A DNA stretch of 64,000 nucleotides from positions 1 through 64,000 of the forward strand of contig NZ_LMCF01000222.1 of the NCBI RefSeq assembly GCF_001623075.1, written 5' to 3'. This DNA comes from Pseudovibrio sp. Ad37 (GTDB lineage Bacteria > Pseudomonadota > Alphaproteobacteria > Rhizobiales > Stappiaceae). Under the pieces are notes generated by a model. The model had not been told where the DNA came from and did not search any database. It saw only the letters and a list, made by a program, of their open reading frames with translations. The position numbers were made by a program, and so were the translations under genes. Shown here one piece after another: positions 2,993-64,000 of the stretch (position 1 is the stretch's first letter; every line of letters starts with the position of its first letter).

Positions 2993-5278
2993 CTAAGACT
3001 TCTTAGTTTCCTGATCTATCAAAACTCTTACAGGGATCGATTTAGCTGCTGGTGTACCACTGATTTTGTCGTAATACCCAAGCGGCAAAAGCGGGTTGAG
3101 TTCCGGATAATAGCCGGCCACAGCCCCTCGGGGTAGGGAATAATCCACCACCGTCAATCCGTTGACCCGCCTATGCATGCCGTCATTAAAGATTGTCTCG
3201 ACGGCAACAAAGGAACCATTTTCCAACTCGCGCTCTGCGCGATCCTCAGCATTCATAAACAACACCATTCGCGTGTTGTAGATACCGCGATAACGGTCAC
3301 TGTTACTATAAATTGTCGTATTGAACTGATCATTGGAACGGACAGTCGCTAACCGCAACATATCCGGGTCATGAACTGGATCATCTGAATTTAATCCATC
3401 AAAAGTAAGGAAGTTTGCCTTCCCGTTTGGAGTGTTCCAAACAAGTCGTCTCGCCGGGACATCCAGATAAAAGCCCTCAGGAATGCGAATCTTCGACAGA
3501 AAGTCGCTGTAAATCTCCGGATAAACTTCTGAGATTTTTTCTCGGATCAAATTGTAATTCGTGATGAAACTTCCCCAGTTCACCACGCTATTTGGAAGAG
3601 TTGCCATAGCCATTCTGCACACAATTTCGACTTCTGACTTCAAATATTGACTTGCTGGCTCTAAAACTCCTCTAGACGCAGAAACCTTTGACATTGAATC
3701 TTCGGTTGTCAAAAACTGTTCACCGGCGGAAGTACCGATCTTTTCGGAGCGTGCGATTACGGGAAGGATCAGGGCATCTTTGCCGTGGACGAGGTGACCA
3801 CGGTTGAGTTTGGTTGCAATACCAACAGTGAGGGAAAGCTTACGCATGGCACCATAGGAGCGTTGAGTATCTGGAATGGCACGAACAAAATTGCCGCCCA
3901 TCCCGATGAAGACCTTAGCGTTCCCTTTCTCCATCGCTTCTACGGCTTTAATTGTATGGTGCCCATGTTCACGAGGCGGCTCAAAATGGAATACTTTCTT
4001 TAGCTGTTCGAGATAAGCCTGCGAAGGCTGTTCATCGATACCAACTGTCCGGTCTCCTTGAACATTTGAATGACCGCGGATCGGTGCAATGCCTGCTCCT
4101 GGCTTGCCAAAGTTCCCCAATAACAACAGTAAGTTTGCCACCTGTTGTAGAAGGTGTGATCCTTTCTGATGCTGAGTAAGGCCCATTCCATAACAAATCA
4201 TCGTTGCTTTAGACCGGATATAAACTTCTGATACACGTCTGATTTGCTCTTCAGAGATGCCTGAAATGTCGGTAATTTCATCCCAATTCTGGCTCAAAAC
4301 ATCTTCTTGCAATGCAGTGATGCCTACTGTGTGACGCTCTACGAACGCCCAGTCGATTATTTGCTCACCATTGGCATCGCGTTCAAAAATGACCTTCATC
4401 ATGCCCTTGAGCATTGCGAGGTCCCCACCAATACGGACTTGAACAAAGTTGCTCGCGATTTCAGTTGAGCCCAATGTCGCCATTTGCACAACGTCTTTAG
4501 GATTAGTGAAACGGATCAACGCACGTTCGGGCATTGGATTGACCACGATAACAGGTACACCCCGTTTTCGCGCTCGAATAAGATTGGCCATCATACGAGG
4601 TGAATTTGTACCGGTATTTTGACCTATAACGAAGATTGCCTGAGTACTGTCAAAATCTTCCATCACCACAGTGCCCTTACCTACACCAATTGATGGCGGC
4701 AGGCCTCGGCTTGTTGGCTCATGGCACATGTTTGAGCAATCTGGAAAATTATTAGTGCCAAACTCGCGCGCAAAAATAGAATAGAGGAATGCAGCCTCAT
4801 TGGAGGTGCGTCCTGACGTATAAAATTCCGCTTGATTTGGATTGCCTAGAGCTCGCAGGTGTCCGCCAATCAGATCAAAGGCTTCATCCCAGTCACAAGG
4901 CACATATTTATCTAGTTCCTCACTATAACGCATGGGTTCGGTTAGCCGACCTTGCATTTCCAACCAGTGATCAGATTCTTCCATCAAGCTAGATACAGTA
5001 TTCGCGGCAAAGAACTCGCGTGTTACTCTCTTTTTCGTTGCTTCGAAGGCGAGTGCCTTTGCACCATTCTCACAAAACTCAAATTTACTTCGACACACCG
5101 GGTCAGGAAAGGCACAACTAGGGCACTTAAAGCCTCCAGGCTGGTTCATTGAAAGGAGTGCTTTCGAACCTTTGCTGAGACCACTTTGCTCCATCAATAC
5201 CTTGAGCGTGGCCCTTGCAGCCCCCCAACCGCCTCCTGGTTGCTCAGTTTTTTGGATCTTATTTTTCTTCTCCGTCAT
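2993..5278 (-). CDS. FdhF/YdeP-family molybdopterin oxidoreductase
   Basis: A 761-residue protein of the formate-dehydrogenase-alpha-like YdeP family. The N-terminus has the family GGWGAARATLKVL segment and the Cys pair KCPSCAFPDP (about residue 51), followed by another Cys in FCENGAKA. Cofactor-binding blocks follow: TSGRTSNEAAFLYS, CSNMCHEPTS, IGQNTGTNSPRM and GDLAML. The C-terminus is the molydop-binding domain. There is no signal peptide, so it is probably cytoplasmic. The natural substrate of the YdeP family is not settled; E. coli YdeP is tied to acid resistance. The gene reads AT-richer than its neighbours and stands alone, divergent from an AraC-type regulator 479 bp away that may control it. 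Confidence 0.85.
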   Translation of the reverse strand: MTEKKNKIQKTEQPGGGWGAARATLKVLMEQSGLSKGSKALLSMNQPGGFKCPSCAFPDPVCRSKFEFCENGAKALAFEATKKRVTREFFAANTVSSLMEESDHWLEMQGRLTEPMRYSEELDKYVPCDWDEAFDLIGGHLRALGNPNQAEFYTSGRTSNEAAFLYSIFAREFGTNNFPDCSNMCHEPTSRGLPPSIGVGKGTVVMEDFDSTQAIFVIGQNTGTNSPRMMANLIRARKRGVPVIVVNPMPERALIRFTNPKDVVQMATLGSTEIASNFVQVRIGGDLAMLKGMMKVIFERDANGEQIIDWAFVERHTVGITALQEDVLSQNWDEITDISGISEEQIRRVSEVYIRSKATMICYGMGLTQHQKGSHLLQQVANLLLLLGNFGKPGAGIAPIRGHSNVQGDRTVGIDEQPSQAYLEQLKKVFHFEPPREHGHHTIKAVEAMEKGNAKVFIGMGGNFVRAIPDTQRSYGAMRKLSLTVGIATKLNRGHLVHGKDALILPVIARSEKIGTSAGEQFLTTEDSMSKVSASRGVLEPASQYLKSEVEIVCRMAMATLPNSVVNWGSFITNYNLIREKISEVYPEIYSDFLSKIRIPEGFYLDVPARRLVWNTPNGKANFLTFDGLNSDDPVHDPDMLRLATVRSNDQFNTTIYSNSDRYRGIYNTRMVLFMNAEDRAERELENGSFVAVETIFNDGMHRRVNGLTVVDYSLPRGAVAGYYPELNPLLPLGYYDKISGTPAAKSIPVRVLIDQETKKS

Positions 5279-6813: not shown

Positions 6814-8645
6814 AACGGCAAAAACACCGGAATAAGCGGGGTGGCAATCGCCAGCGCCATGATCTGCAACGGCACGCCAATCACCACGTAATCCTTGAAC
6901 CGGTAGTTCCCCGGCCCCATCACCAGCGTGTTAATGGGCGAGGCCACAGGCGTACAAAACGCCGTCGAAGCCGCAATCGCAACGCTCATGAGGAATGGCT
7001 CAGGCTGCACCCCCATAATGGACGCCACCTCAAACGCAACAGGCGCAATCAACACCGCCGTCGCCGTGTTCGACGTAAACTGGCTGAAGACAGAGGTCAG
7101 CAAAAACAAAGACATCAGCATCACATAAGGGGAGCTATTGCCATAAAGCGCAACAATCTGATCCACAATCAGCAGCAACCCACCCGTTTTCTCAAGAGCG
7201 GTAGCCATGGGGATCATCCCCGCAATCAAAATCAAACTGGGCCAGTTGATAGAAGTGTAAGCCCGATTAACCGAAACACACCCCACGCACACCATTGCCG
7301 TCGCCGCCAAAACAACCGCCGTCACGCTCGGCACCACACGGAAGATGATGAGCGCCAGCATAAGCGCCAGAATACCAAGCGCGACAGGCGCCAGCTTGCG
7401 CCGGGGCAGATAGTTCTTAATCTCCTCCGGAAACGCCAGCAACAGAAAACTCTCCCGCGCCGCCTGCAGTTTGCTGATGTTCTCCCAGTCCCCGACCACA
7501 AGCAACTGGTCCCCAAACTTCAGCTCAATGTTCCCAAAGTTCCCGTGCAGAGTTTCCCCCTTACGGATAAGCCCGACAACGCTCAGGTTGTGGTTGGTCC
7601 TAAACCCGGCACCACTGATCTTTCTACCGATCAGCTTGGAATCCGGCGCCACAATCAAATCTGCCATGCCAAGCTCACGCGCAGAAAGGTGATGCCCCTC
7701 CTCGCCCATCGGCAACAGTTCCAGCCCAATGCAGGCAAACACATCCTCGCTGATAGGCTCCTGCATCACCCCGAACACAATATCATCAGCCTTGAAGGCA
7801 CGGTTTGTCTGCGTCGACGTCACCTTCAGCCGCTTGGTCGTGGTGGAGGTATACTCCAACCCAAACAGTGTAAGCCCAACCCGCCGCCGCAGCTTCGCAC
7901 TCACAACAGTCTGCCCAACCAGCTCAGAATCCTCACGGACCCGCAGGCGGACAATCTTGTCCTCAATATCATAGGCTTCCAAAAACCCCTGCAGCGTCCG
8001 GCGCCCCTGCTCGGTCGCCCCTTGCGGTCGCTGCTGACCACGCAAAAATAGGCGGCCATACACCAGCATGTAAATCACCGCCACAATGAGAATGACGAGC
8101 CCGATCGGCGTGAAGATGAAGAAGTTGAACGGCTCCATGCCAGCATTTTGCAACTGCGCATTGGCAATCAGGTTGGGCGGTGTCCCGATCAGGGTAAGCA
8201 TCCCCCCAATCAGTGCCCCATAAGCAAGTGGCATAAGCAGCCGCGAAGGAGAAAGGTTGGAGCGGCTCGCAAGGCGGATAGCAACCGGAATAAAGATCGC
8301 CCCTGCCCCGGTCACACTCATAACAGACGCCAGCGCCGCAACCGTCAGCATCAACAGCACGATCAGCTTCCACTCCTGATCCCCCGCAATCTGAACGATC
8401 TTGTCTCCAACCGCATAAGAAATCCCGGTTTGAGCCAGCGCCTCACCAACAATGAACAGCCCGGCAATCAAAATGACAACGGTGGACCCGAAACCCGAAA
8501 GCATTTCAGCAGGCGTCAGAATACCAGACAGCCCAAGCGCCAACATCACCATGATTGCAACAAGGTCCAGCCTCAGCTTGTCGGAGACAAACAGGATGAC
8601 AGCTGCAAACAATACGAAGAAGGTGAAAAGCATTTCCCAAGACAT
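6810..8645 (-). CDS. SLC13-type permease with two TrkA-C domains
   Basis: A 611-residue membrane protein. About five hydrophobic segments lead (residues 1-205), then a soluble insert (about 215-400) with two RCK_C/TrkA-C-like domains recognisable by DSELVGQTV and DSKLIGRKI, then a second membrane half. The repeated IGTPPNLIANA and GTPVASPINTLV-type hairpins are typical of the SLC13/DASS and arsenite-permease superfamily. Members carry dicarboxylates, sulfate or other anions across the inner membrane; the substrate here is not evident. A perfect inverted repeat lies about 87 bp upstream (8732-8750). Confidence 0.85.
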   Translation of the reverse strand: MSWEMLFTFFVLFAAVILFVSDKLRLDLVAIMVMLALGLSGILTPAEMLSGFGSTVVILIAGLFIVGEALAQTGISYAVGDKIVQIAGDQEWKLIVLLMLTVAALASVMSVTGAGAIFIPVAIRLASRSNLSPSRLLMPLAYGALIGGMLTLIGTPPNLIANAQLQNAGMEPFNFFIFTPIGLVILIVAVIYMLVYGRLFLRGQQRPQGATEQGRRTLQGFLEAYDIEDKIVRLRVREDSELVGQTVVSAKLRRRVGLTLFGLEYTSTTTKRLKVTSTQTNRAFKADDIVFGVMQEPISEDVFACIGLELLPMGEEGHHLSARELGMADLIVAPDSKLIGRKISGAGFRTNHNLSVVGLIRKGETLHGNFGNIELKFGDQLLVVGDWENISKLQAARESFLLLAFPEEIKNYLPRRKLAPVALGILALMLALIIFRVVPSVTAVVLAATAMVCVGCVSVNRAYTSINWPSLILIAGMIPMATALEKTGGLLLIVDQIVALYGNSSPYVMLMSLFLLTSVFSQFTSNTATAVLIAPVAFEVASIMGVQPEPFLMSVAIAASTAFCTPVASPINTLVMGPGNYRFKDYVVIGVPLQIMALAIATPLIPVFLPF

Positions 8646-56704: not shown

Positions 56705-58030
56705 TCAAAATGTTCTGCTCACTGGGACCATCGAAATTCCGTAGGTCCTCGATCTTACATCAGCATCAGCTGTTGTTCGACCAATCTTCTTCCAAGGCAT
56801 GTAGGATACCCCACCAACAAAAACAATAAGCGGAGCTGTCAGAAATGCTGTTTTCAGCCAGTTAGCAGGAATTTCTAGCTCAAAATCTCCACAAAGCTCT
56901 TTTTGAACATAAGTGATTTTGAAGCCTTCTGCAGAATGCGCTGCTTTATAACGCCAGCGATCATCCCATATTCCCTCATCTCCTGGCTTAACCTCAATCT
57001 CTGGCAAGCCAGCCCTTCCAGCCTCCCGAAAACAAAACCAGATAGATTCGTCACGTGGTTTTGCCAGCGCAAATCGAACCCCGCCAAGAGTGGCCGCCCT
57101 GCTCCCATCTTCTGCTTTCAGAGTCTCATAAAGCCCTTCAAGCTTGGCAAGGCGCGGCATATAAGGAGCGCCGGAAATGTAGCGAACGAGTCGACCAACC
57201 AGCCTCAAGCCAATTTCATCGGGAATGTACTCCAGACACGAACTGTCAAAACGGACTGGTCCGGCACTATGAAACGTACAGGATTTCTCAGCTACTTCAT
57301 CCACCCAAACATCAATCGCATCAGCAGTACGGGCCATGCGTCGCGCCGTGTCGGAAAGCTTCGCCGCAGTTAGCCCAAGTTCGTCAAGCTCCTGCTGCGC
57401 TTGGCGAAATTTCACACGCGTAAACTGCTCATCTTCATTAGAAGGATCTTCAAACCATGGCACCTGGGCAGAATGCAAAAGCGACTTAAGCCGAACCTTG
57501 CTGATTTCGAGCAGTGGACGGCAAATCTGAAACCCGTCCAACTCGCGGTCCTTACGAATACACGCAAGACCATAAACCCCACTGCCCCGCGCCAAACGCG
57601 TCAAAAACGTTTCTGCCTGATCTTCCAGATGATGGCCTAGAAAGAGCCCCTCACATCCATGGTCTTCAGCAGCCTGTCGCAAAAGAGCATAGCGCGCATC
57701 CCGGGCTTCCGATTGGATGTTTGAAGACGGTTTCTCACCAATCCAATGCAATGTCTCATGTGGCACTTCAATGCGCCGGCAATACTGCGCAACGCCTGCA
57801 GCTTCGCTGGCGGCCTCAGCACGCAAACCATGATCGACTGTGAAAGCATAAAGTTCAGGAGCAGAAAACCCCAGTTCCTGCGTCCACTGCTTCAAAAGAT
57901 AAAGCAGAGCCATAGAATCAGCACCGCCGGACACACCAACGGCGATCCGGCGGAAAGACTTATACTCTCCGAAAAGCTCATTCAGCTCATCGGAAGAAAA
58001 GAGAGCAACTTGATTAGAGGCAGTTGTCAC
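56705..58030 (-). CDS. tilS: tRNA(Ile)-lysidine synthetase
   Basis: A 441-residue enzyme if it starts at the GTG at 58030. The PP-loop motif VGVSGGADSMALLYLL lies about residue 32, followed by GLFLGHHLEDQAETFLTRL and the RPLLEISK segment. It makes lysidine at the wobble base of tRNA-Ile(CAU), an essential step. The start overlaps the cpoB gene by 17 bases; an AAGG lies 13 bases ahead. The frame is open a further 32 codons, all inside cpoB. The C-terminal part is divergent, as usual in this family. Confidence 0.9.
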   Translation of the reverse strand: MTTASNQVALFSSDELNELFGEYKSFRRIAVGVSGGADSMALLYLLKQWTQELGFSAPELYAFTVDHGLRAEAASEAAGVAQYCRRIEVPHETLHWIGEKPSSNIQSEARDARYALLRQAAEDHGCEGLFLGHHLEDQAETFLTRLARGSGVYGLACIRKDRELDGFQICRPLLEISKVRLKSLLHSAQVPWFEDPSNEDEQFTRVKFRQAQQELDELGLTAAKLSDTARRMARTADAIDVWVDEVAEKSCTFHSAGPVRFDSSCLEYIPDEIGLRLVGRLVRYISGAPYMPRLAKLEGLYETLKAEDGSRAATLGGVRFALAKPRDESIWFCFREAGRAGLPEIEVKPGDEGIWDDRWRYKAAHSAEGFKITYVQKELCGDFELEIPANWLKTAFLTAPLIVFVGGVSYMPWKKIGRTTADADVRSRTYGISMVPVSRTF

Positions 58031-58901
58031 GTTTTTGTTGAACCTTGGCCTGCTCCAGCACAGCAGGGGCTGCAAACTGGAAATTGGCGAGAAGCTGCTC
58101 GTAAGTTTCACAAGCAGCGGGCGCATTCCCCATACCTGTAAGGGCAGTCCCCAATTTCAGCAAGCTTTCAGGAGCCAGTTCACTCTCAGGAAAATCAGTA
58201 TAGCTTTTTAAAAAAGCTTGTGCAGCGTTCTCATACTGACGCTGAGCCAGCAGGCTTTCGCCAAGCCAGTGCTGCGCATTCGCAGTCAGCTCATGATCAG
58301 GATACATACCAAGAAACGTATCAAAGCCCTCAGTCGCAGCTGGGTAGTTGCCGCCAACCATCAGACCATAAACAGCATTGTAGTCCGACTGCGGGTCACC
58401 GCTCAGCAGTTCATTCACGCTGCCAGAGAACTGAAGAGAGCCAGAACTTGGTGCAGGTGTGGAACCGGTAGGCGCAGCGTTGTTGCCGCGTGCAATCTGA
58501 GAAAGATCCAACGGACCGCTGTTCGTTCCCTGTGCAGGCGTATTCAGCGTAGAAAGTTGCTGAGACCGATTTGTCGGAGCCGTCGTGCTCGGTTGCTGAA
58601 CAACAGGAGGCTGGACAACGCGAGGTGTCTGGCCCGGATTTTCCAACTGCTGCAGGCGGTACTCAACGTCCTCCTGAGAACGGCGCAGAGCGTCTTCAGT
58701 CAGACGTAGTTTGTGATTGAGCTCTTCAACCTTGCCTGTCAGCAAGCGAACCTGCTCTTCAAGTTGACCAAGGCGAGCAGTGTTCTGTGCGGTTTCATTA
58801 TTTTTGGATGAACCGAAAAGCTGCGCAGATGCTGGTAAACTTGTAGAGGTTACAAGCGCAAGAACAATAAAGCTTGTTGCAATACGTCGATAAAGAGCCA
58901 T
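58014..58901 (-). CDS. cpoB: Cell division coordinator CpoB (YbgF)
   Basis: A 295-residue periplasmic protein. A signal peptide (to about residue 27, SLPASA) is followed by a trimerising coiled coil (about 42-90, LGQLEEQVRLLTGKVEELN), a Pro/Thr/Gln-rich linker, and a C-terminal TPR domain (about 170-295, DYNAVYGLMVGGNYPAATEG onward). CpoB links the Tol-Pal complex to peptidoglycan synthesis at division. The start is the ATG at 58901 after AGGAG; a TTG one codon upstream is open. Confidence 0.93.
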   Translation of the reverse strand: MALYRRIATSFIVLALVTSTSLPASAQLFGSSKNNETAQNTARLGQLEEQVRLLTGKVEELNHKLRLTEDALRRSQEDVEYRLQQLENPGQTPRVVQPPVVQQPSTTAPTNRSQQLSTLNTPAQGTNSGPLDLSQIARGNNAAPTGSTPAPSSGSLQFSGSVNELLSGDPQSDYNAVYGLMVGGNYPAATEGFDTFLGMYPDHELTANAQHWLGESLLAQRQYENAAQAFLKSYTDFPESELAPESLLKLGTALTGMGNAPAACETYEQLLANFQFAAPAVLEQAKVQQKRDNCL

Positions 58902-59063
58902 CAATTATCTCCTGAGACACCCTACAGGGGCCGGGTCGGAATTTCTCATCTCTTGGCAAGAGGAAAAGACGAAAATAGGGCACACATTCAGTGTTTCTCT
59001 CCTATTTGCGGCTTCTCCCCGACCAATTTCCGTTCTCCTACAAGTTTGCAGGAGTTTCAACAA

Positions 59064-59094
59064 AAAAGGCTCCCCCAAATTAGAGAAGCCTTTT
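59064..59094 (-). terminator. Terminator after pal
   Basis: AAAAGGCT (59064-59071) pairs with AGCCTTTT (59087-59094), 26 bases past the pal stop. It may separate pal from cpoB. Confidence 0.8.
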
Positions 59095-59119
59095 CCAAAT
59101 TTCAGCGAGTCAAACTCAA

Positions 59120-59602
59120 TTACTGACCGTTCAGAACTGTCACAGCACGACGGTTCTGGCTCCAGCAGGAAGCCGCATTACAAACCGCAACCGGACGCTC
59201 TTTACCGTAGGAAAGAGTCTTGATGCGGGTTGGGCTAATGCCTTTTGCAACAAGGTATTCCCGAACGGCAGCTGCACGTCGCGCACCCAGTGCAATGTTG
59301 TACTGGCGGGTGCCGCGCTCATCAGCGTGACCTTCAATAGTAATTGAGTAGTTTTTATAGTGTTGCAGCCACTGAGCCTGCTTATCCAGCACTGCACGAG
59401 CAGAACCATCAATGGAGCTCTGGTTGTTGAGGAAGAATACACGATCCCCAACATTCACAACGAAGTCCTGTCCAGAGCCAGCTGCAACAGAACTATTGCC
59501 ACTGGTCAGTTCAGGGCGTGTCTGCGAACAAGCTGCTGCGACGAGACACACAGCCACCACAGCAGCGAAACGCGCTCCGCGCGCGAACAGCGTCTTTGAC
59601 AT
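59120..59602 (-). CDS. pal: Peptidoglycan-associated lipoprotein Pal
   Basis: A 160-residue lipoprotein. The lipobox is LVAAAC near residue 25. The OmpA-like domain has TIEGHADERGTRQYNIALGARRA, which binds diaminopimelate in peptidoglycan, and a late Cys pair (CNAASC). It anchors the outer membrane to the wall and partners TolB. The start has AGGAG 10 bases ahead. Confidence 0.97.
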   Translation of the reverse strand: MSKTLFARGARFAAVVAVCLVAAACSQTRPELTSGNSSVAAGSGQDFVVNVGDRVFFLNNQSSIDGSARAVLDKQAQWLQHYKNYSITIEGHADERGTRQYNIALGARRAAAVREYLVAKGISPTRIKTLSYGKERPVAVCNAASCWSQNRRAVTVLNGQ

Positions 59603-59700
59603 TTATAGAATCTCCTGTCCCTCAAACCCCGAGGGTTAAAAAAGCCCTAGACCAACTTGGTTAAGGGTAACTTGAATTTATTGGTTAATGAAGTGCTAAT

Positions 59701-59731
59701 GACCCCAATTTCCCGCGAGAAATTGGGGGTC
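59701..59731. terminator. Long hairpin between tolB and pal
   Basis: GACCCCAATTTC pairs with GAAATTGGGGGTC (one bulged G), a 12-bp stem with a 6-base loop, 12 bases past the tolB stop. No U-run follows on the gene strand, so it may act as a stabiliser or a weak terminator within the operon. Confidence 0.5.
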
Positions 59732-59743
59732 TCAGTTTCATGA

Positions 59744-61108
59744 TTAGTCGAGCAACGGAGACCATGCCGGATCTGATGCAAAGTTTGGCGTCTGAACCAG
59801 CTGTTCGTTATAGCCGGTCAGGTCAACCGTCCAGACTTGAGGACCACCCTGCTCGCCCACGGTATCGCGGAAGAACGTCAGTACACGTCCGTTTGGAGAC
59901 CAGGCTGGTCCCTCATTGTGATAGCCTTCAGTGAGAATACGCTCACCCTTACCATCTGGGCGAATAACGCCAATCATAAAGCGTCCCTGATGCACCTTGG
60001 TAAAGGCAATCAAATCACCGCGCGGCGACCACACAGGCGTTGAATACTGTCCTGGCCCAAAGGATATGCGTGTCGCACCGCTTCCATTTGAGTTCATCAC
60101 ATAAAGCTGCTGAGAACCGCCACGGTCACTTTCAAACACCACCAGGCTCCCATCCGGTGAGAAAGAAGGACTGGTGTCGATAGCGGCTGTATTGGTCAGG
60201 CGCGTAGTCCGGCGTGTCCGGAGATCCATGAGATAAAGGTTCGCATTGCTGCCCTGCTGCAAGCTCATGATGACCTTTTGACCATCAGGAGAGAAGCGCG
60301 GCGCAAACGTCATACCTGGGAAGTTCCCAAGAACCTCACGCTGTCCGGTTTCAATGTTGAACAGGTAAACCTGCGGATTACCGCCTACATAAGACATGTA
60401 GGTCACTTCCTGAGAGACAGGAGAGAACCGAGGTGTCAGCACAAGGTCATCACCACGGGTCAGATAGCGCACATTCGCGCCATCCTGATCCATAATTGCC
60501 AGACGCTTACGGCGCACATCCTTCGGTCCGCTTTCGTCAATAAAGACCACGCGGGTATCGAAGTAGCCTTTCTCACCAGTCAAACGCTGGTAAACCGCGT
60601 CGGAAATGATGTGTGCCAGACGGCGCCAGTTTTCCGGTGTGGTAAAGAACTGCTGGCCAATCAACTGCTGACCGGCAAACACATCCCACAAGCGAAATTC
60701 TGCCCGGATCTGTCCGTTTGCCTGCTGCGCGATAGAACCAGTCACCAAAGCCTGAGAACCAATGGTTCTCCAATCGCCAAAGCGCGGCATGGTGCCCACA
60801 TTCATTCCCTGCTGAATATGCGCTGTCGGATCAATCGGGCGGAATAAGCCCGAGCGCTGCAAATCCGCTGCAACAACTTGAGAAATCTGCCCTGCCACGT
60901 CTTCCTGCAAGCCGGAACCTGCAAAGGGAGAAATTGCAATCGGCATAGGTTCAACGTTGCCCTGAGTAATATCAAGTTCAATCAGGGCATATGCAGGTTG
61001 AGAGATCGCAGCAACAGTAACAGCAGCAGCCACAAGGCGACATGCATGACGCCACAGCTGCTTGACTCCTGTTGTACGCATTGGGTTAAGCCCCATCACA
61101 AAGGACAT
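59744..61108 (-). CDS. tolB: Tol-Pal translocation protein TolB
   Basis: A 454-residue periplasmic protein. The signal region ends at about residue 41 (ISQPAYA). The N-terminal domain (about 45-170) is followed by a six-bladed propeller with repeated SPDG/SPFSPDG-type turns ([53 protein letters not shown]). TolB binds Pal and is released by TolA at constriction. The start at 61108 follows AAAGGAGCTTAGGTCT; an ATG nine codons in is possible. Confidence 0.96.
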
Positions 61109-61136
61109 AGACCTAAGCTCCTTTCAATCTCAATAC

Positions 61137-61541
61137 CTAATATCCACGCATATCGCGAAGATCAAAATTCAGTGTGACTGTCTTCCAGGTTTCATACTTT
61201 TCAGCCGGAAGAGAGTAAGGCGCACAGCGGGCTACGGCTCTCACCGCACTTGTTGCAGCCGCTTTGTACTCAGGAGACTTTCCTGAGCTTAACACCTGCG
61301 GGGTTCCTACAAGTTCGCCTGATCGACTAAGATCAAACTGCAATCGCACCACTCCATCAGATCCGTGAGGAGGAATCCAACAACCGGCAATTTGATCTCG
61401 AAAAACAGCTAACTCGTCGCTGGTTAACGGCAGCAAAGAAGTACCGCTATCAGCCATGGCGGCACATCCAGAGAGAACACCTGTAGCGAGGACTAGTCTC
61501 GCCCCTACCTTAACCCTTTCGATACCCAAAGCTTTTCTCAT
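61137..61541 (-). CDS. Lipoprotein with a TolA C-terminal-like domain
   Basis: A 134-residue protein between tolA and tolB. The N-terminus has a charged start, a hydrophobic stretch and the lipobox VLSGC with Cys26. Residues about 42-134 align with the last 95 residues of the adjacent tolA product: AGCWIPP with GQCWNPA, FDLSRSGELVGTPQVL with FKLTRAGEVDGSPRVL, ARCAPY with LRCGPY, and DLRDMRGY with TPRDMLGY at the very end. It looks like a duplication that gained a lipid anchor and lost the helical stalk. Start at 61541; a TTG seven codons up overlaps the tolA stop. Role unknown. Confidence 0.85.
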   Translation of the reverse strand: MRKALGIERVKVGARLVLATGVLSGCAAMADSGTSLLPLTSDELAVFRDQIAGCWIPPHGSDGVVRLQFDLSRSGELVGTPQVLSSGKSPEYKAAATSAVRAVARCAPYSLPAEKYETWKTVTLNFDLRDMRGY

Positions 61542-61551
61542 AGCTATCCCG

Positions 61552-62493
61552 TCAGTATCCAAGCATGTCGCGAGGAGTAAAGTTCATGATAACAGTCTCC
61601 CACGCATCGTATTTCGCAATAGGCAGCACGTCTTGATAAGGTCCACAACGTAGGATTGCCCGCACTGCTGCGCCAGCTGAAGCCGCAAAAGCAGGATGAG
61701 AACTTGAGTTCAACACACGGGGCGAACCATCGACCTCTCCGGCTCGTGTCAGCTTAAACTCAACACTCACATTCAATTCGTGAGCATCCAGAGCTCCAAC
61801 AGCTGGGTTCCAACACTGCCCGATCCGCCCGCGAAGCGCATCCAGTTCAGACTGGCTCATCTTCACGTTGGTCTGACCCAATTCGGATCCAAGAGAAGCC
61901 GGTTTTGCAGACTTTGCAGTCCCGCTCGACTTCGCATTCGTTTTGTTCAGCAAAGCCGCCATCTTCGAGTTAAAGTCTTCCTTCTTCTTCGGCTCTTCCT
62001 TCTTCGGCGCTTTAGGGCGCGCTGGAGGCTTTGGCTTGGAACGTGGACGAACTTTAACGACCTGCTTCGGCTTTTCTGTTTTCTCGACTTCAGGACCAAG
62101 TTCTGCAGTCTCCGCAGGCGCCTTTTCTTTCGGCACTTCCTTTGGGGCTGGTTCTGGCTCAGCTGGTTCCGGTGGCGGCGGCGGTGTTTCAGCCTGCTGC
62201 ACTTCCTTCTTCGCTTCCTGAACCTTCTTCACCTCTTTCTTAGCTTCACCGGTCTTTTTCTCCGGTTCTGGCTTTTCCGCAGGCTTCTTGGTCGGCTGCA
62301 ACGCAGCCTCTTTGATTTCCTTCGCTTCTTTTGTGCCCAGCTGCAGCTTTGTCAGCTCGCTCACAGGCACAAGATCCACGGGCAGTGAATCCACCGGGGC
62401 AGTGTTCAGCTCTTTGCCCAAGTTAAGCGAAACCGCTCCGGCAACAAGCACGACCACGTGAACAACTAGCGATGCGATAAGGCCTGCACGCAT
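61552..62493 (-). CDS. tolA: Tol-Pal inner-membrane protein TolA
   Basis: A 313-residue protein. One membrane span (about residues 5-24, LIASLVVHVVVLVAGAVSL) anchors it. A Lys/Glu/Pro/Ala-rich stalk (about 55-200) crosses the periplasm. The C-terminal domain (about 215-313) has GQCWNPA, LRCGPY and ends RDMLGY. It transmits proton-motive force from TolQR to TolB-Pal. It follows tolR with a 6-base gap. The stalk is shorter than in E. coli. Confidence 0.95.
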   Translation of the reverse strand: MRAGLIASLVVHVVVLVAGAVSLNLGKELNTAPVDSLPVDLVPVSELTKLQLGTKEAKEIKEAALQPTKKPAEKPEPEKKTGEAKKEVKKVQEAKKEVQQAETPPPPPEPAEPEPAPKEVPKEKAPAETAELGPEVEKTEKPKQVVKVRPRSKPKPPARPKAPKKEEPKKKEDFNSKMAALLNKTNAKSSGTAKSAKPASLGSELGQTNVKMSQSELDALRGRIGQCWNPAVGALDAHELNVSVEFKLTRAGEVDGSPRVLNSSSHPAFAASAGAAVRAILRCGPYQDVLPIAKYDAWETVIMNFTPRDMLGY

Positions 62494-62499
62494 TCCCGG

Positions 62500-62958
62500 T
62501 TAACCCTGCTCCTCTAGAGTGACGAGCCCAATGCGCTTGTATCCAGCAGCATTGATGCGACCCATAACTTTCATGATGATTCCGTAATCAGCATCCTGAT
62601 CACCACGCACGTAAATACGCTCGTTGTAACCATTCTCGGCAATCGCACCGAGTTTCGCGATCAACTCATCAATAGGGATTTCGGTATCCTGAATGAACAC
62701 GCCCCCATCAGACTTCACCGAAATCGCTATCGGCTCAGTGTCACCTTCCATCGCTTTTGCGCGAGTTTCAGGCAGGTCAATCGGCACGCCGACAGTCAGC
62801 AAGGGAGCTGCCACCATAAAGATGATCAGCAGTACCAGCATCACGTCCACCATCGGCGTTACGTTGATCTCGCTCATCGGTGCGTGAGAATGCCTGCGGC
62901 GACCACGTCTGCCACCTGCACGACCACCACCACCAGCTGCTCCAGTGCTCATACCCAT
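62500..62958 (-). CDS. tolR: Tol-Pal protein TolR
   Basis: A 152-residue ExbD/TolR protein. After a Gly/Arg-rich N-terminus comes a membrane span (about 31-55, INVTPMVDVMLVLLIIFMV) with the proton-path Asp in PMVDVMLV. The periplasmic domain includes VPIDLPETRAKA and the C-terminal YKRIGLVT. It forms the proton channel with TolQ. It starts 3 bases after the tolQ stop with GAGGATAAACC ahead. Confidence 0.96.
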   Translation of the reverse strand: MGMSTGAAGGGGRAGGRRGRRRHSHAPMSEINVTPMVDVMLVLLIIFMVAAPLLTVGVPIDLPETRAKAMEGDTEPIAISVKSDGGVFIQDTEIPIDELIAKLGAIAENGYNERIYVRGDQDADYGIIMKVMGRINAAGYKRIGLVTLEEQG

Positions 62959-62961
62959 GGT

Positions 62962-63747
62962 TTATCCTCGCTCATCAATGCGGCGGGACAAAATGGCGGA
63001 AAACTCGTCTGCAAAGCCTTCCATACGCGCGGCAAGCTTGCCGGAATCACTCTGCAGTTTGTTGTAAGCAATAACCGCCGGAATAGCTGCAATCAGGCCC
63101 AAACCGGTCGCAAAAAGCGCCTCGGCGATACCTGGAGCCACAACGGCAAGGTTGGTATTCTTGGAAGCTGCAATGGAGGTAAATGCATTCATGATGCCCC
63201 AGACCGTACCAAACAGACCAACAAATGGAGCCGCACTGCCGATTGTTGCAAGGAACAACAGACGTTTTTCAAGACGCTCAACTTCACGGGAGATGGTCAA
63301 ATCCATCACGCGGTCGATACGCTGCTGCAGGCTGGCAATCGCAGGCTTATCCCCTTCATGAGAGCGCTTCCACTCACGCATCGCAGCCACAAACAATGCG
63401 GACATGCCGTTATTCGCACGGGAGGATAAAGACTTGTAAAGCTCTTCGAGAGATTGGCCGGACCAGAACACATTCTCAAAACGGTTCATCTGGCGACGAG
63501 AGCGACCGTACAGAACAATCTTGTCAAAGATAATCGCCCAGCTCCAGACAGAAGCAGCGATCAGACCGATCATTACAATCTTGACGACGATGTCTGCTTC
63601 CAGAAACAACGAAATGTAGGACAAGCCCGAACCCGGAGCTGCACCCAGCTCAACAGATTGCACGTCCTGAGCCGTTGCAGCCAATGGCGTCAACAAAGCC
63701 GCCGCTGCGCTCATGGCCACAACGAGTTTCATCACCTTAGAGTTCAT
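62962..63747 (-). CDS. tolQ: Tol-Pal protein TolQ with extra N-terminus
   Basis: A 261-residue MotA/TolQ/ExbB protein. Three membrane spans of the family lie at about 52-72, 165-187 and 205-225, with the conserved LFLATIGSAAPFVGLFGTVWG and GIAEALFATGLGLIAAIPAV blocks. It energises TolA with TolR. The start at 63747 has AGAGG ahead. Before the first span there is an additional hydrophobic stretch (about 7-25, LVVAMSAAAALLTPLAATA) ending in AQD, like a signal peptide. First gene of the operon within the window. Confidence 0.94.
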   Translation of the reverse strand: MNSKVMKLVVAMSAAAALLTPLAATAQDVQSVELGAAPGSGLSYISLFLEADIVVKIVMIGLIAASVWSWAIIFDKIVLYGRSRRQMNRFENVFWSGQSLEELYKSLSSRANNGMSALFVAAMREWKRSHEGDKPAIASLQQRIDRVMDLTISREVERLEKRLLFLATIGSAAPFVGLFGTVWGIMNAFTSIAASKNTNLAVVAPGIAEALFATGLGLIAAIPAVIAYNKLQSDSGKLAARMEGFADEFSAILSRRIDERG

Positions 63748-64000
63748 GTAATAAGGACCTCTTGCCCTGATAACCCAAAGACCTGTCCACGGTAGAACCC
63801 CTGCCATGGACACAACCAGTCTATTAAACATTTAGCAGCCTTCCTGCCTGTCGAATTTGGCGAAACTTCGACTACAGCCAGCATTGAAGGCATAAATGAA
63901 AAGACCTGTTTAAGGTTACTGAAGGATTAAAAGGTTTCCAGTCCCGTTTACTTTGAATGAATATTGGTGATTTTTCGCGATGATTATCGCGCTTATTCGC
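63748..64000. other. Upstream region of the tol operon, window edge
   Basis: 253 bases upstream of tolQ with no gene. TTTTTCGCGATGATTATCGCGC near the right end contains CGCGATNATTATCGCG-like symmetry. Whatever lies upstream (often ybgC) is outside the window. Confidence 0.4.

Follow-up and report, generated by a model that had tools for sequence, protein, structure and literature searches.

A stalkless TolA domain III lipoprotein gene inside the tol operon of Pseudovibrio sp. Ad37 and its possible role as a decoy

The tol operon of Pseudovibrio sp. Ad37 contained, in addition to tolA, a gene (here called tolA3-lip) encoding a second, stalkless version of the tip of TolA (domain III, TolA-III), preceded by a lipoprotein signal. 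It lay on the minus strand at 61541..61137 of the window (the whole stretch of DNA analysed, 64,000 nucleotides), with an ATG start, 134 codons and a stop, and the plus-strand reading of 61137-61541 was broken by stops. Its reading frame and pairwise substitution rates show that it is intact and under purifying selection, yet it is changing fast for its age. As a preferred but tentative reading, we suggest that exported TolA-III copies such as this one may act as periplasmic decoys or competitors for TolA-III ligands, above all phages and bacteriocins.

The coordinates given for a TolA-III lipoprotein in the original prediction were right, the strand being the minus one. By eye, the 134 aa product comprised a charged start, a hydrophobic stretch, the lipobox VLSGC (residues 22-26, with the lipid Cys at Cys26), a short linker and domain III (approximately residues 37-134); a lipobox preceded by a positive n-region and a hydrophobic stretch is the pattern of a bacterial lipoprotein. 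The lipobox consensus is [LVI][ASTVI][GAS]C, which LSGC in the window and LAGC in the copy of a congener (G009) fit, whereas LLGC in the copy of a more distant relative (G171) fits a looser pattern only. We infer that the product is lipid-anchored on the periplasmic face, and the membrane is probably the outer one because Ala follows the lipid Cys, following the +2 rule for lipoprotein sorting from E. coli. As predicted, neither stalk nor membrane helix was seen by eye besides the signal peptide, and the product thus lacked the TolQR-binding membrane helix and periplasm-spanning domain II of a TolA. BLASTP against the TolA encoded in the same operon aligned 45/108 identical (42%) and 67/108 positive residues (1e-22, as E for a single comparison), and both Cys and the RDMxGY end that had been noted as shared with the TolA C-terminal domain were present in the alignment, together with CW..P and RC.PY. 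Pfam TonB_C (PF03544) scored 24.8 bits, marginally above its gathering cut-off of 24.6 (by 0.2 bits), and NCBIfam tolA_full (TIGR02794) scored 25.7 bits, below its cut-off of 59.45; the resident TolA likewise fell below the tolA_full cut-off (23.9 bits), so this model is weak for the clade.

The domain III fold was recovered in an AlphaFold model (mean pLDDT 75; block pLDDT 81-91 across residues 41-130) with the order H-E-E-H-H-E over residues 41-127, built from an input (A4) of 31 rows, mostly TolA, that may pull the model towards TolA. The structural likeness anticipated by the original prediction was borne out in this model: Foldseek gave TolA-III 1lr0 as top match (7e-4), and VIA gave Z 12.1 against 1lr0 and 10.4 against 6s3w (TolA-III with a TolB peptide). 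High VIA scores were also obtained against TolA with phage pIII/g3p (4g7x, Z 10.4; 2x9a, Z 10.2) and against TolA-III with colicin A (3qdr, Z 9.4), and TonB C-terminal domains matched at Z 4.9-8.5. A profile search of PDB sequences was led by 6s3w (7e-4) and 1lr0 (8e-4). No Rfam family was found over 57000-64000, and a BFVD fold search returned nothing at 1e-3. TonB and TolA-III folds are general beta-augmentation modules, and this, together with the TonB matches, would suit an outer-membrane lipoprotein with a new and unrelated task that uses the fold as a generic adaptor, for example for a TonB-box protein. We regard this explanation as distinctly unlikely; the sequence profile matched TolA first.

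All genes of the operon lay on the minus strand, in what we take to be the order tolQ-tolR-tolA-[tolA3-lip]-tolB-pal-cpoB-tilS-ftsH. tolA (313 aa, with membrane helix, stalk and, at 61555..61854, domain III) occupied 61552..62493 and, read from 62493 to 61552, stopped 10 bp before the start of tolA3-lip, which in turn ended 28 bp ahead of the tolB start at 61108. Labelled from sequence knowledge were tolB (59744..61108) and tolR (62500..62958), both with orthologues in relatives, a tolQ ORF (62962..63831) whose true start is probably downstream of the listed one, pal (59120..59602) and a cpoB/ybgF-like gene (58014..58904). The tol operon is described as highly conserved in content and order, typically with one tolA (PMC12204202, PMC7391070), and the passages on its content in PMC12204202 name no gene between tolA and tolB. 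In the open-access papers searched, we found neither such a gene nor TolA-like phage proteins described, and the original prediction's statement that a gene between tolA and tolB has no described role held there.

Operon position and tight spacing suggest co-expression, which would suit a modulator of the Tol-Pal system: the anchored TolA-III would bind the TolB N-terminus at the outer membrane without force, compete with TolA and tune Pal mobilisation, vesiculation or division. Binding of TolB to TolA-III is reported as weak (Kd about 40-200 uM), by beta-augmentation at the alpha3-beta3 edge (PMC7391070), so a local anchored copy could compete. Competition with TolA had been raised in the original prediction, beside capping of TolB or a sink function, and is plausible; the part of that idea concerning Pal is weak because no TolA-III-Pal interaction is reported with purified proteins (PMC7391070). 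On the comparative evidence set out below we consider modulation of Tol-Pal the main rival to the decoy reading, possible but somewhat unlikely as the main role of the gene.

Comparison with G001, the closest of the compared congeners at the tol operon, showed that this genome lacked tolA3-lip and differed from the window over a tract of ~670 bp covering TolA domain III and tolA3-lip (61160..61827, from identity and dS, the ends being approximate). DNA identity was 97.0% over 63420 to 61828 and 97.7% over 61159 to 59700, with 88-100% in 60-column windows of the flanks (40 of 51 at 97 or more); inside the tract it fell to 61.9% over 247 alignable columns, and TolA domain III DNA was 65.6% identical. 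Between the window genome (G000) and G001, dS was 1.93 for TolA domain III, 0.12 for the rest of TolA and 0.09 for TolB (dS, dN and omega are pairwise Nei-Gojobori estimates throughout, and partly saturated). The tract edges were sharp and the window TolA-III was an orphan allele in genus and family, 58-67% identical to 14 other genus TolAs and 63% to that of G013 (a separate comparison, G013 being left out of the 14-genome table). No donor of this allele was found: of 87 family genomes, 79 matched at 1e-25, and none of these exceeded 67% identity. The pattern looks like import of a divergent TolA-III allele, together with or around tolA3-lip. TolB differed at only 2/454 positions between the window and the copy-less G001, so that no co-adaptation of TolB was visible in this pair, which speaks against Tol-Pal modulation. 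Other members of the family (L040-L046, from G016, G017, G018, G028, G062, G064 and G070) carried a Cys-less, different type of TolA domain III with ordinary TolR and TolB, which may reflect additional exchanges of the tip domain.

A survey of alphaproteobacterial tol operons, of the kind the original prediction had proposed, found the gene to be patchy. An extra ORF beside tolA was present in 2 of 16 genus genomes (own included, all matching through TolA), namely G000 and G009, and in 4 of 87 family genomes (own included: G000, G009, G023 and G024), in a scan in which 86 of 87 genomes had any match and overly divergent homologues would be missed. The G009 copy was an intact positional orthologue of tolA3-lip; G023 and G024, of another genus, had copies with a plain Sec-type signal (by eye). 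In an order sample of 297 genomes, 33 with more than one match besides G000 and G023 were examined further; of these, G290 and G358 (family f28), G171 (f50) and G109 (f24) had a copy immediately following tolA, so that at least 6 of the 297 genomes, with G000 and G023 counted, had a copy beside tolA, in a scan that scored up to 14 candidates per genome. All six lineages with a tolA-linked stalkless copy had an export signal on it, as judged by eye. The G171 copy was also a lipoprotein (AALLGC, by eye), placing a lipobox in two lineages, g1 and f50; the G109 copy had a Sec-type signal and lacked the two Cys, as did its own TolA, and the start of the G290 copy overlapped the tolA stop by one base. 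Plasmids yielded 5 weak matches only, covering 69-73% of the query.

Absence of the gene from close relatives had been named in the original prediction as refuting it, and 14 of the 16 genus genomes did lack it; against this stand the intact G009 orthologue and the equivalents in other genera and families, because of which we take the absence from most congeners to reflect gain, loss and exchange and not artefact. A frameshift or artefact was ruled out by the intact G009 orthologue and by omega well below 1. The same absence from 14 of 16 genomes counts against Tol-Pal modulation. Patchiness (4/87 in the family, at least 6/297 in the order sample) and the exchanged tract would also be expected if recombination often makes tandem copies of the tolA 3' end, some of which gain an export signal, persist as a store of domain III alleles and are then lost. 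That tolA3-lip is such a by-product is unlikely in our view, given the export signals in all six lineages and the selection on the gene. Omega between the G000 and G009 copies was 0.32 over the whole gene and 0.21 over the domain, and between the G023 and G024 copies 0.27 and 0.20, so that domain omega was 0.20-0.21 in two separate pairs. The gene has probably lasted, because the dS of the G000/G009 copies (1.05-1.09) was near that of TolB in the same genomes (0.87), and this too argues against a transient by-product. Their dN was 0.22-0.35 versus 0.02 for TolB (10-20 times), a rate of change unusual for part of a conserved machine and thus a further difficulty for the modulator reading.

Copies with an export signal (by eye) also occurred unlinked to tolA in G090, G130, G326 (two in a row), G342, G219 and G189, and such copies in L062, L063, L201, L202, L203 and L205 are consistent with a generic adaptor. 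The two in G326 (L201 3027-3512 and 3585-4022) were different exported TolA-III-like proteins lying away from tolA; L202, L203 and L205 had similar single proteins. In G300, from an incomplete genome, tolA was seemingly split over two frames (L064 522-1169; a draft error or real), and G016 (L057, C2) and G018 (C18) each had, elsewhere in the genome, one more weak match of TolA/TonB type, in frames of 343-377 aa.

The copies beside tolA seem to have arisen repeatedly as tandem duplicates, on two occasions with a lipobox. When six copies were compared with the TolA-IIIs of their lineages (6 x 6, the G001 TolA standing for the window lineage), 5 of 6 copies scored best with the TolA-III of their own lineage, and no pairing but the true one, among 720 permutations, reached the observed sum. 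The exception was the G358 copy, which fitted the TolA of G290 (same family, f28) better than its own. The window copy was 61% identical to the genus-type TolA-III of G001 and 47% to its present own TolA-III, the exchanged one, and in a wider table the G023 copy scored 207 with the TolA of g6, another genus of the family, versus 204 with its own. In trees of 97 columns with long branches, a single clade of the eight tolA-adjacent copies was rejected (AU p 4.2e-5), ruling out one ancient standalone family of these copies; the starred branches forced at least four changes, and the G171 (f50) and G109 (f24) copies paired with their own TolA at 99/97 and 99/98. Copies of g1 and g4 joined in one tree (96/99) and were apart in another, so they may share an origin, and a tree constrained to join both lipoproteins to the resident TolA-III of the window was not rejected (p 0.295). 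Gene conversion could imitate independent births. That tolA-adjacent copies mostly resemble the TolA of their lineage and not each other argues against a generic adaptor; the same tracking is in favour of Tol-Pal modulation.

Docking sites on TolA-III have been placed at beta3 for TolB and g3p and at beta2 for colicin A (PMC7391070). The alpha3-beta3 part was better kept than the rest in 5 of 7 copy/TolA pairs (57-75% vs 37-56%, the window copy being paired with the TolA of G001) and worse kept in the two f28 pairs (G290 28%, G358 5%). Retention of this edge in five pairs would suit binding to TolB by a Tol-Pal modulator, and its loss in two lineages would not.

Genes of a similar kind were found in phages. 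An IMG/VR scan with alignment A1 identified two siphophage-like contigs in which a short gene encoded a Sec-type signal (by eye) and TolA-III. With three IMG/VR DNA pattern scans (39, 52 and 29 matching stretches, most of them out of frame or chance, only HMM-found genes being counted) and an HMM search of ORFs, the set grew to 19 distinct phage contigs with exported mini-TolA-III genes, in 9 clusters at 50% identity, including L058 (7935-8276), L059 (401-715), L082, L095, L098, L100, L102, L132, L160, L164, L165, L166, L170, L173, L176, L181, L182 and L185; two contig pairs had identical proteins (L098/L102 and L164/L181). In 18 of 19 contigs the gene stood opposite to the tail-gene strand and divergent from the tape-measure gene, with start-to-start distances of -77 to 80 bp in 17; in L166 the tape-measure start lay 663 bp away with one small gene between. 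All seven adjoining tape-measure proteins compared with PHROGs matched tape-measure families, and the remainder were assigned from their N-termini, which form 5 clusters. Such a position fits that of superinfection-exclusion morons; the gene for HK97 gp15, for one, adjoins the tape-measure gene. The prophage proteins HK97 gp15 and TP-J34 Ltp are reported to block DNA injection, with escape via tape-measure or tail genes (PMC10883804).

In L083 (3296-4490) a mini-TolA-III gene adjoined a repressor-like gene (by eye) and not a tape-measure gene. A second small lipoprotein gene followed the mini-TolA-III gene in 9 of 19 contigs (by eye), of GCGSITLPTAARF or SGCASNQAS types (L160 1500-2144, L165 8196-8867, L095 2475-3014, L176 2712-2963); L165 had two different mini-TolA-III genes (3693-4100 and 7764-8165), and many of the phage proteins ended in (D/N)PFK. 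A phage model reached pLDDT 84 from an input (A6) whose rows include two of TolA-III, one of the window copy and two of copies linked to tolA, and which may pull it towards TolA; Foldseek was weak, with the HasB C-terminal domain first (0.013) and TolA-III second (0.014), and VIA placed TolA-III first (Z 9.8). None of the six phage mini-TolAs compared with PHROGs had a family at 1e-5 or better, and neither the window protein nor five phage mini-TolAs found a match in INPHARED (E up to 1, or 0.1). When 385 genomes of the class were scanned (E up to 1e-6), the window frame was, among the matches listed, the sole frame under 180 aa, and when 397 genomes of the order were scanned (E up to 1e-8), all 41 matches lay in frames of 192-865 aa, so phage-type genes look rare in the genomes there. 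With tolA on one side and tolB on the other, the window gene adjoins no tape-measure gene, and a phage origin as the main reading was ruled out by its product being 61% identical to the G001 TolA-III and 27% to that of phage L058. Chromosomal copies are not closely related to those of phages, and the link between them is one of analogy.

In the decoy reading that we prefer, the anchored copy would offer the docking surface of TolA-III while being unconnected to the TolQR motor. Once past the outer membrane, a bacteriocin translocation domain, or the tail or adsorption protein of a phage, would dock on the copy instead and be caught at a point from which it could not be drawn into the cell. Protection from entry parasites would be the most likely benefit, some competition for TolB being a tolerated side effect. 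The chromosomal copies would be host-made decoys, copying the very TolA to which parasites are adapted. Temperate phages appear to do likewise with their periplasmic mini-TolA-III morons beside the tape-measure gene; because these are on the opposite strand, tape-measure-linked and periplasmic, such a mimic may shield lysogens from phages whose tape measure uses TolA.

Comparative evidence points to phage and bacteriocin entry, which was absent from the original prediction. The nearest solved folds of the modelled product include TolA-III bound to phage pIII/g3p and to colicin A; purifying selection, fast change, the exchanged tract and several origins are consistent with a decoy, as is the better retention of the alpha3-beta3 edge, where both TolB and g3p dock, in 5 of 7 pairs, and the phage genes beside the tape-measure gene lend support by analogy. 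HK97 gp15 and TP-J34 Ltp are a precedent, as are E. coli cells producing the TolA ligand pIII or its N1 domain, which are described as resistant to colicin A and as having phage uptake lowered by 4 logs (PMC10424213). Against a decoy, lineage-tracking is equally expected if the copy competes for the cell's own TolB, and the tracking is imperfect (window copy, G023 and G358); the f28 copies (G290 and G358) have lost the alpha3-beta3 part, and in G009 the copy occurs beside an ordinary resident TolA-III, so its presence is not bound up with an unusual TolA allele. We know of no phage or bacteriocin here that uses the TolA-III of the genus. The chromosomal copies fit TolB competition nearly as well as decoy logic.

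It is possible, and we advance it with some reserve, that free-standing exported TolA-III forms an unnamed class of anti-entry decoy, in which chromosomes recopy their own TolA tip beside tolA, twice with a lipid anchor, and temperate phages exclude rivals whose tape-measure protein depends on TolA to inject DNA. If true, TolA-III would serve siphophages as a host factor during injection, and in alphaproteobacteria it would be a hotspot of an arms race. A force-free TolA tip, apparently born several times and also present in phages, suggests that motor-free display of TolA-III is repeatedly useful, and hints that in some siphophages the tape-measure protein relies on the Tol system to inject the genome; tolA3-lip would be a directly testable natural decoy.

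Among known systems, TolA domain III (1lr0, 6s3w) resembles tolA3-lip in fold, CW..P, RC.PY and 42% identity, whereas a whole TolA has a TolQR-binding membrane helix and stalk where tolA3-lip has a lipobox and scores far below the tolA_full cut-off. Superinfection-exclusion proteins (HK97 gp15, TP-J34 Ltp, P22 SieA) are like the phage mini-TolA-III genes in their moron-like position, but as described in PMC10883804 they are membrane proteins and not TolA-like, and the window gene is chromosomal, within the tol operon. With TonB_C proteins (PF03544) tolA3-lip shares a score just above the gathering cut-off, but it has no TonB architecture and is TolA-type in sequence and location. Laboratory constructs in E. 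coli that place a free Tol-binding domain in the periplasm alter colicin and phage sensitivity, as is reported for pIII-N1 (PMC10424213); soluble TolAIII is another construct of this kind. Unlike them, tolA3-lip is natural, under selection and equipped with its own export or lipid signal.
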